64,000 bases of DNA. Source: Opitutia bacterium ISCC 52. Lineage in GTDB: Bacteria; Verrucomicrobiota; Verrucomicrobiia; Opitutales; UBA2995. The translations under genes and the position numbers were made by a program. Under the pieces are notes generated by a model. It worked only from the letters and a program-made list of their open reading frames with translations, was not told the origin of the DNA and made no database searches. Location of the stretch: contig CP076040.1 of assembly GCA_014529675.2 (NCBI GenBank), forward strand, positions 2,623,894 to 2,687,893, read 5' to 3'. Within the stretch, counting starts at the first letter, position 1. Every line of letters starts with the position of its first letter. Positions 46,076 through 48,628 of this stretch are shown here, one piece after another.

Positions 46076-46119
46076 GATTAGCCACGGTTAATAGACCGAG
46101 GAAATCTTAAAGCTACGTT

Positions 46120-46177
46120 CGACGCTGTATCCAGCGTCGCTACATTTTAGTTTGTAGCCACGTTCGAAAGAAGGTGG
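46120..46177. repeat. REP-like hairpin pair, left of the transposase relic
   Basis: CGACGCTG-TATC-CAGCGTCG (46120-46139) is a perfect eight-base stem; CCACGTTC-GAAA-GAAGGTGG (46158-46177) is a second stem with a GAAA loop and one G-G mismatch. Twenty-four bases from 46120 recur exactly at 46735. A further weaker copy (CGGT/ACCG in GCCACGGTTAATAGACCG) lies at 46081. Confidence 0.75.
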
Positions 46178-46217: not shown

Positions 46218-46697
46218 GTGAAACGCAAAGAAGCCTATCGAGGATTTGCATCTATTTTCTGGACTCACTCGATTGAAGAACGGAAGACCGACTGGCTAAC
46301 AGCAAACTTTCATTCCCAGTTTCGCGAATTGCTATGGCATCTCCTTTCTCGATACGACTGCATCTGTCCCATCTACCGTTTGATGCCGGATCATATTCAC
46401 CTGCTGACTACAGGAGTCAGCGCAAGAACTGATCAGCTGAAGTTCACTAGGCAACTTCGGAAAGAAACCAATACTCTAATAAAACCGATCAAACTCCAAC
46501 ATCAAGCGCACGATCATCTATTAAGAAAAGAAGAGCTTGAACAATCTGCGTTCCAAGGAGTTGCATTTTAAATCCAGGAGAATCCTGTGCGTAAAGGGTT
46601 GTATAAGGAATGGAAGAACTACGAGTTCACTAGTTGTATGTTGCCGGGTTGCTTCAGATTAGACCCTCGAGACGAGAATTATTGGGCTGTGTTCTAG
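46218..46697 (+). pseudogene. REP-associated tyrosine transposase (RAYT, Y1/IS200-like) with nonsense codon
   Basis: HUH-type single-strand transposase relic. It reads from the start at 46218 through the metal-binding RLMPDHIHLL to FQGVAF, where TAA (46569-46571) interrupts. The same frame then continues IQENPVRKGLYKEWKNYEF to TAG 46697. RAYTs carry a YIxxNPV motif here, so the stop replaces the Tyr of that motif, the presumed nucleophile. One base change (TAT/TAC to TAA) explains it. REP-like hairpins lie on both sides, the expected substrate of such an enzyme. Confidence 0.8.
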
Positions 46698-46734
46698 AAA
46701 ATTCACAACACCCTAGTAACTCGGAACTCATAGT

Positions 46735-46795
46735 CGACGCTGTATCCAGCGTCGCTACTTCACTATTCTATTAGCCACAGCCGAAAGACTGTGGC
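46735..46795. repeat. REP-like hairpin pair, right of the transposase relic
   Basis: Second copy of CGACGCTG-TATC-CAGCGTCG (46735-46754) and a hairpin GCCACAG/CTGTGGC (46774-46795). The second stem is followed by GTTTTTC and could also act as a plus-strand terminator. Confidence 0.75.
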
Positions 46796-46801
46796 GTTTT
46801 T

Positions 46802-47022
46802 CAGTCAGAGGCTCTCATGGAGATGAGATGTTGCGCTTGAGAATGGAGAGATGAAGGCGCGCACTTTTGGTGCGTAACTGAATCAAGAAATTCGAACACG
46901 CAGCATGTCGCTCCAAAGATGGGAGCAAACATTTAGCCAAGAAGGATTAAGAATCCACTCAGATTAAGCTTTCATCAGAAAAAATGAATTCCTTTGCTCC
47001 CATCTGGTGAGAGCCTCTGACT
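46802..47022. other. 221-bp element predicted to fold as a three-way junction
   Basis: Outer stem: AGTCAGAGGCTCTCA (46802-46816) pairs perfectly with TGAGAGCCTCTGACT (47008-47022), 15 bp. Arm 1: ATGTTGCGCTTGA (46827-46839) pairs with TCAAG (46883-46887) and CGCAGCAT (46899-46906), enclosing a GCAC/GTGC hairpin. Arm 2: AGATGGGAGCAAA (46917-46929) pairs perfectly with TTTGCTCCCATCT (46993-47005), enclosing GGATT-AAG-AATCC. Only short single-stranded joints remain. No coding frame. The outer right end overlaps the stop codon of the sulfatase, so on the minus strand it would be that gene's 3' UTR. Confidence 0.65.
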
Positions 47023-48628
47023 ACCTTCTTCGGTTCTCCATGAACTCCAGATACCGGTTCAAGTGCTCTTGATCGAGTTCGTCGCTATCGCCGTAACTGG
47101 CCCTAACTTCTTCGAGCTTCTTATGTAGCGCTGCCTGCACGACAGCGTATCCAGGCTGATTATACACATTGTTCATCTCTGAAGGATCCTCTTCCATGTC
47201 GTAGAGTTCCCAGTAGTCTTTATCGTGGTAAAAATGAATGAGTTTGTATTTATCAGTCCGAACTCCGTAGTGGCGCATTACGCTGTGTTCCGCTGGATAT
47301 TCGTAATAGGTATAATAAGCATGATCACGGAAGTTATCCGTCTCGCCACTCACCACACGACGAAATGATTGCCCTTGATTGTCCTCCGGAATGTCAATGC
47401 CGGCGTAATCCAAAAACGTAGCGGCAAAGTCCAAATTCTGAACCAAATGATCCAGCTTTTGGCCGGCCTTAATTTCTTTAGGGTATTTGATCAGCATCGG
47501 GGTTCGAAATGACTCATCATACATGAAGCGTTTATCAAACCATCCATGCTCACCCAGATAGAATCCTTGATCAGAAGTATAAACGACAATGGTGTTTTCA
47601 GATAAGCCATTTTCTTCTAGGTAATCTAATACTTCCCCGACTCCATCGTCGACTGACTGAATACTGCGCAGGTAGTCTTTGATGTAACGATTAAACTTCC
47701 ATTTCGCTAATGCCTCCCCTTCGAGATTAGCTGCTTTAAATTCCTCAATCAACGGATCATAGTACGCATCCCAGGCGGCCTTCTGCTCTTCATCCATTCG
47801 ATCGTAATTACGTTGAGCATATTCACGGTACTTGGTCTGAAGCTCCCCTTCATCGTCCAACATCTTCAGGTCGTAGACAACGTCCATGTGTTCGAAGATG
47901 CCCATCTCGTGATTTGCAGCAGCGGGGCGTCCTTCGTAATCATCGAAGAAATTATCCGGCAACTCGAATTCACGATCATCAAATAAAGTGAAGTATTTTT
48001 CCTCGGGCATCCAGGTACGGTGCGGAGCCTTCTGATGGTAGAGCATGAGGAAGGGTTTTTCCTTATCCCGTTTATTCTCCAACCAATCGAGCGCGATGTC
48101 GGTGGTGACCTGAGTCACATAGCCATGAATCTGAATCTTTTCACCATTCTCGATGAAGTCAGGATTGTAATAACTCCCCTGCCCCGGAAGAACGTTCGAG
48201 TAGTCAAATCCTTGAGGAAGCCCATTCAAATGGATTTTCCCAACCATCGCTGTGGTGTAACCTGCCGCCTGCAAGCTCTTGGCAAAGTTGTCCTGGTCCC
48301 AGTTAAACGGCTGAATGTTATCTACCTTCCCGTTCATGATGCTGTGCTTGCCGGTGAGCATCACCGCACGACTGGGAGCGCAAATTGAATTGGTTATGGA
48401 ACTCCGGGTAAACAAGACACCCTCGTTAGCGATACGATCAATGTTGGGCGTCTCATTCAGTCCAAAACCATAGGCACTCACCGCCTGATAGGCATGGTCA
48501 TCACTCATGATGAAAACGATATTGGGCCGAGTATCCTTGGAGGCAGTTTCTTCTTTGGGCTGACAGCCAGATAAAAGGGCCCATACTGGCAAGCAGAAGG
48601 CAACGATGCGGATCAGGTGGTTTTTCAT
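47021..48628 (-). CDS. Sulfatase lipoprotein (type I, CAPSR)
   Basis: A 535-residue S1 sulfatase. Lipobox LLSGC near residue 22 indicates an envelope lipoprotein. Metal-site RPNIVFIMSDDHAYQ (Asp pair), the formylglycine motif SICAPSRAVMLTG, GKIHLNG and YTSDQGFYLGEHGWFDKR are intact. The Cys requires conversion to formylglycine by a maturase; none is in the window. Head gene of the sulfatase region; 16 bp downstream of the next sulfatase gene and probably co-transcribed with it. Confidence 0.93.
   Translation of the reverse strand: MKNHLIRIVAFCLPVWALLSGCQPKEETASKDTRPNIVFIMSDDHAYQAVSAYGFGLNETPNIDRIANEGVLFTRSSITNSICAPSRAVMLTGKHSIMNGKVDNIQPFNWDQDNFAKSLQAAGYTTAMVGKIHLNGLPQGFDYSNVLPGQGSYYNPDFIENGEKIQIHGYVTQVTTDIALDWLENKRDKEKPFLMLYHQKAPHRTWMPEEKYFTLFDDREFELPDNFFDDYEGRPAAANHEMGIFEHMDVVYDLKMLDDEGELQTKYREYAQRNYDRMDEEQKAAWDAYYDPLIEEFKAANLEGEALAKWKFNRYIKDYLRSIQSVDDGVGEVLDYLEENGLSENTIVVYTSDQGFYLGEHGWFDKRFMYDESFRTPMLIKYPKEIKAGQKLDHLVQNLDFAATFLDYAGIDIPEDNQGQSFRRVVSGETDNFRDHAYYTYYEYPAEHSVMRHYGVRTDKYKLIHFYHDKDYWELYDMEEDPSEMNNVYNQPGYAVVQAALHKKLEEVRASYGDSDELDQEHLNRYLEFMENRRR

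Follow-up and report, generated by a model that had tools for sequence, protein, structure and literature searches.

HEARO or omega RNAs of IscB and TnpB elements are structured RNAs of about 200 nt, with many mobile copies that lack an ORF and insert precisely relative to a short motif. ERIC/RU-1, YPAL/RU-2 and other MITE-like repeats are 100-200 bp long, intergenic and present in many copies, with inverted-repeat ends and target duplication (PMC2229807). ERIC-type transcripts fold into a long paired structure, and the effect of ERIC on upstream mRNA is orientation-dependent (PMC2229807). GTAG-type REPs are found downstream of genes, and their ends often give TAG stop codons to the flanking ORFs, with a high enrichment in O. 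terrae (Verrucomicrobia) (PMC3733652).

The element described here lies beside a sulfatase gene in the window (the whole stretch of 64,000 nucleotides that was analysed) and resembles each of these systems in part. Like ERIC/RU-1 and YPAL/RU-2, it is intergenic, multicopy and inverted-repeat-ended, and it folds. However, it is larger (about 225 bp), its fold is a three-way junction and not a single long hairpin, its stems vary yet covary, one of its ends docks at stop codons, and it has no Rfam match. Like GTAG-type REPs, it sits downstream of genes, by stop codons, but a REP is a single hairpin of 20-40 bp, whereas the element is 225 bp long and has a YTAR-like border tetranucleotide instead of a fixed GTAG. 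With HEARO and omega RNA it shares a structured form, the lack of an ORF, many mobile copies and precise insertion by a short motif; in contrast, it has no Rfam HEARO match, and no nuclease ORF was seen in its copies. It is filed as a previously undescribed family among the small mobile structured repeats. Rfam gave no family match at or above the gathering score, in agreement with the preliminary description of this DNA, which had recognised no known RNA family, and no description of this repeat family was found in the literature. The reading that we favour, with a probability of roughly 0.6, is a non-autonomous mobile repeat of about 225 bp, MITE/REP/ERIC-like, which is retained at the borders of genes in structured form.

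The limits of the element are 46801-47024 of the window, about 224 bases, by a covariance-model match (175.8 bits, E 8.4e-43), corresponding to G000:C1:2670694-2670917 in its own genome (G000). It is assigned to the + strand, the folded strand, by this match, the folding z score and the strand test described below. The + strand folds with -96.2 kcal/mol (z -6.35) and the - strand with -87.7 kcal/mol (z -5.80), and on both strands 0 of 200 shuffles folded equally well, which bears out the earlier judgement that such nested pairing is unlikely by chance. The 15-bp perfect outer stem that had been claimed is exact (46803-46817 with 47008-47022); together with a T-G closing pair, this stem (P1) has its 5' arm at 46803-46818 and its 3' arm at 47007-47022 on the + strand. 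Arm 1 (P2; 46819-46914, + strand) is conserved and contains repeated purine-rich GA/GA internal loops (RNAalifold columns 19-116, with conserved GA at columns 42-43, 46-47 and 53-54 and their partners). Its apical hairpin, GCGCAC(loop)GTGCGT at 46859-46875 (+ strand), is nearly invariant across the family. Arm 2 (P3) is closed by a 13-bp perfect stem, also exactly as first reported, with its 5' side at 46917-46929 and its 3' side at 46993-47005, around a fast-evolving loop at 46930-46992 (+ strand; ortholog divergence 0.424). The convergent neighbour gene, a sulfatase on the - strand (47021-48628; PF00884 1.7e-55, PF16347 3e-70), was rightly said to abut the element with its stop codon: the TAG (- strand, 47021-47023) is flush with the 3' end of the element and overlaps the outer stem.

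On its other side, the element borders a frameshifted IS200-like/RAYT remnant (46218-46700), whose PF01797 match is just below the cut-off. This remnant is bracketed by two identical 25-nt REP hairpins (46119-46143 and 46734-46758). The preliminary description had taken the REP hairpins to make a mobile origin plausible. They flank the RAYT remnant and lie outside the element; mobility itself was borne out by other evidence. Any tie between RAYT and the element would rest on the adjacency of this remnant at the window copy.

Within G000, blastn returned nine diverged copies, 71-83% alike, mostly across arm 1. When refolded on the same strand, most of them form the same junction with other stem sequences; two or three, including L006 and L007, look damaged. 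At least 22 copies are present in the congener G002. The covariance-model search of the genome and its relatives that had been proposed at the outset, with a model built from 27 copies, found 46 dispersed copies in the complete genome G000 and 31 in the congener G005. Across the order the distribution is patchy, with matches in 16 of 373 genomes from 10 genera, and in a search of 388 genomes of the phylum all copies found were in members of the order; because filters were strict and few candidates were scored per genome, weak copies may be missed in both searches. A pattern scan across genomes returned a sole name, the MAG 'Verrucomicrobia bacterium KW1-S08_24', and no viral contig carried the exact core pattern (a strict pattern, and weak evidence).

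Covariation among the copies was assessed in an alignment, A3, made with MAFFT from 27 copies and not fitted to structure. Double compensatory changes were found in 35 of 51 pairs, 92.6% of cells were paired, and the covariation score was 0.446, against 0.173 for shuffled and 0.05-0.11 for slid versions. RNAalifold recovered the same helices along with extra short pairs in arm 1, and 43 of its 58 pairs had double changes. The outer stem, which is the terminal inverted repeat, is paired in 88% of cells while its sequence varies among the copies. The same holds for the arm-2 stem, where sequence is free to change and pairing is maintained (double changes in 12 of 13 pairs). The arm-2 loop is unconserved in sequence and fairly constant in length. 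In arm 1, conserved GA dinucleotides are opposed in the internal loops, where they probably form tandem sheared G-A pairs. These changes show that the predicted three-way junction is maintained by compensatory change. Conservation and covariation are thus both found alongside folding better than that of shuffled sequence, the two grounds on which the preliminary description had let its element stand or fall.

The strand that folds can be told from wobble pairs, since an A-C pair would be G-T on the opposite strand. In A3, G-T pairs number 138 and A-C pairs 15 on the + strand. The ratio is 76 to 17 with fixed wobble pairs removed, and 338 to 79 across all G000 and G005 copies. The asymmetry is weak in a diverged subfamily from another family (G036; 89 to 62) and absent from its outer stem. 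The + strand was also the more stable fold in 59 of 64 copies. Because G-T outnumber A-C on the + strand of the window, this is taken to be the folded strand, and the predicted functional fold in the genus is that of the + strand. RNA is the natural reading of such a fold; single-stranded DNA is also possible. The folded strand is mostly antisense to neighbouring genes in G000, a position that sits badly with a role in the mRNA of these neighbours. Of the structured RNA first suggested, the structure gains support from strong covariation with strand asymmetry, but its placement in a sulfatase 3' UTR does not hold, as the strand that folds runs antisense to this gene.

For several copies, orthologous sites without the element were found in relatives. 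TTAG-element-CTAG (L027) corresponds to an empty TTAG in three congeners and TTAC in a fourth, GTAG-element-CTAG (L022) to an empty GTAA, and TTAA-element-TTAA (L003) to an empty CTAG. Other copies have direct repeats, CTAA/CTAA and TTAG/TTAG, that are non-palindromic and so point to a genuine 4-bp duplication rather than an inverted end; TAAG/CAAG at L043 is consistent with such a duplication. At the TGA-stop copies L035 and L046, the flanks look inverted instead of direct. A 4-bp target duplication at YTAR-like sites is likely, from few clean empty sites. At the level of sequence, the mobility of the copies is shown by empty sites and by 4-bp direct repeats of the form YTAR. Mobility was the part of the earlier suggestion of a MITE-type element that stood, given the dispersed copies, empty sites and direct repeats. 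A classical MITE remnant did not, since the terminal inverted repeat varies among copies without losing its pairing and the fold is maintained once a copy has inserted. The genes next to the copies in G000 are residents that relatives carry without the element, and gene cassettes carrying their own gene were rejected for this genome on that ground. No autonomous element with the same ends was seen in a pattern search of two draft genomes, a point against the favoured reading. A retron msr-msd was ruled out, as G000 has no PF00078 (reverse transcriptase) match.

Where genes were called by open-frame length alone, the 3' end of the element lies exactly at the stop codon of a convergent (opposite-strand) gene in 27 of 38 copies in G000, compared with 1 of 38 for the 5' end. 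Several further G000 copies have a stop codon within 7 nt of the 3' end. In G005 the 3' end is docked in 17 of 28 copies and the 5' end in none of the 28, and 3' docking also occurs in other families (L136, L137 and L138 in G030; L131). At L129, L135 and several G036 copies, the 3' end meets the start codon of a same-strand gene. Short intergenic spaces and the survival of harmless insertions explain the docking in part, but not its one-endedness. Two points here count against the favoured reading: a palindromic YTAR target would not alone produce so marked a bias in orientation, and stop codons that read TGA at the docking position do not match YTAR. In the printed copies, no consistent T-run of an intrinsic terminator was seen by eye after the stem on either side.

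About eleven copies have flanking genes common to G000 and G005. In nine of these orthologous copies, paired sites diverged by 10.5% (outer stem), 11.7% (arm 1) and 8.2% (arm 2), compared with 24.5% for unpaired arm-1 sites, 42.4% for the arm-2 loop and 30.5% for third codon positions of neighbour genes; the alignments were fitted to structure, and misalignment may inflate the loop figure. L272/L243, which shows differences along its whole length and is possibly a replacement, and L282 were left out of the pooled divergence. As paired sites diverge less than the arm-2 loop and third codon positions, the stems have been kept after insertion. The changed pairs in all eleven comprise 27 double standard, 31 single standard and 56 non-standard changes. 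The inferred constraint on the stems is real and, given the non-standard changes, not absolute.

As a non-autonomous mobile repeat, the element would insert at short YTAR-like sites, most often at a gene's stop codon. A trans-acting transposase or recombinase would read arm 1, which is conserved, together with the inverted-repeat end, while these are single-stranded or form a cruciform. Insertion at a stop codon would leave the gene intact, so that copies persist. Less certainly, the structure at the border may then work in the host between cistrons or at transcript ends, in the manner of REP and ERIC. Such a putative role would account for the stem constraint, from which alone a host function is suggested. 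The element joins features that are usually separate: a covarying branched fold, mobility, stop-codon docking by one end and constraint after insertion. With its orthologous pairs and the 46 copies of a single complete genome, it offers a tractable case for studying how mobile repeats are built into the gene borders of a host, and whether a fold instead of a sequence can serve as a recombination site.

Two alternatives are related to integron attC sites, which share with the element a stop codon in one end, a folded strand antisense to the gene and a structure kept as sequence varies. A further likeness is a directional array in G036, which belongs to another family. Here the diverged subfamily (median identity 0.48) is represented by about 27 elements in a 66-kb region that spans metabolic genes and a Mu-like prophage; nearly all of them point the same way. 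No elements were found in the 38 kb before or the 40 kb after this array; two more are on another contig. The box TTCGTRGACC stands upstream of many G036 elements, and their orientation is constant across genes of both orientations, which argues against the favoured reading. The array resembles a cassette array, and an attC-like reading is kept open. In one form, somewhat unlikely, the system is unrelated to known integrons: a putative recombinase reads the three-way-junction fold and not the sequence, with 3' ends at CDS borders and one-directional arrays. In another, which we consider unlikely, a tyrosine recombinase uses the folded single 'bottom' strand, scattered copies being sites or empty cassettes and G036 an array without integrase. 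The conserved box beside the stem in G036 fits this form, and integron-type integrases are present in 7 of the 16 genomes with the element and in 74 of 357 others, a modest difference in raw counts with kinship ignored. However, no integrase scored above the cut-off in G000, G002, G036, G034 or G030, and no element was found on the stretches fetched around intact integrase genes. Element ends in the genus read YTARCCYGC..GCRGGYTAR; no R/L boxes were recognised (no GTTRRRY/RYYYAAC by eye in printed flanks, and no GTT boxes in G036 ends and flanks). The resident neighbours in G000, which lack the element in relatives, the 4-bp direct repeats, the size of about 225 nt and the mostly scattered single copies also stand against it.

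A stand-alone structured host non-coding RNA, spread by duplication and acting in trans, is likewise unlikely. It would account for the covariation, for the one-stranded G-U asymmetry and purine-rich GA/GA internal loops, and for stems constrained after speciation. Against it stand a copy number that is high and varies, a patchy distribution, empty sites and nested insertions; no conserved promoter-like block was seen upstream, and copies are mostly antisense to both neighbours. An ordinary IS5- or IS1380-type MITE, its pairing kept only by transposition or template-switch palindrome repair and with no host role, would match the inverted-repeat ends, the 4-bp direct repeats and the absence of coding capacity, but is very unlikely, as the stems of orthologous copies have diverged less than their loops or the third codon positions, and palindrome repair would neither slow divergence nor favour G-T over A-C.

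Several minor observations were made on individual copies. In the Mu-like prophage of G036 (L125, G036:C11:108000-127900; terminase, portal), several genes have an element immediately ahead of their start codon. At the end of contig G034:C51 (L126 7983-8439), elements in head-to-tail tandem, spaced by 223 nt, run off the contig. An integron-integrase-like gene is split by the element at the conserved motif GVDI/RTVQELLGH (the slash marking the split) in L171 9800-10643 (G001:C35) and L174 (G002:C627), an insertion common to both genomes. The GC skew of G000 changes sign near 2.0-2.2 Mb; the folded strand is lagging in 28 copies and on the other side in 18 (hand count), and a link to the replication strand was rejected for want of a clear bias. 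The younger copies share the outer-stem consensus TARCCYGCAWTTCTCAC, on which ground a host terminator sequence entered by the element was rejected as the source of this stem. Solo hairpins, outer-stem halves facing each other without the inner arms, occur at G002:C241:1861-1895, G002:C14:10110-10147, G002:C528:2834-2868 and G001:C147:4344-4378. REP-like insertions of about 35-75 nt are found in arm 1 or at the joint of arms 1 and 2 (L026, L037, L039, L042, L044, L051; L006, L028, L254). One of them is common to six G002 copies, which suggests that the composite moved on. Finally, a box like CGCCCGCGAC stands directly outside the outer stem, in the 5' flank, in a subset of G000 and G005 copies (e.g. 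L236, L240, L253, L271); with a pattern chosen after looking, it was counted in 18 of 64 copies against 1.8 expected.
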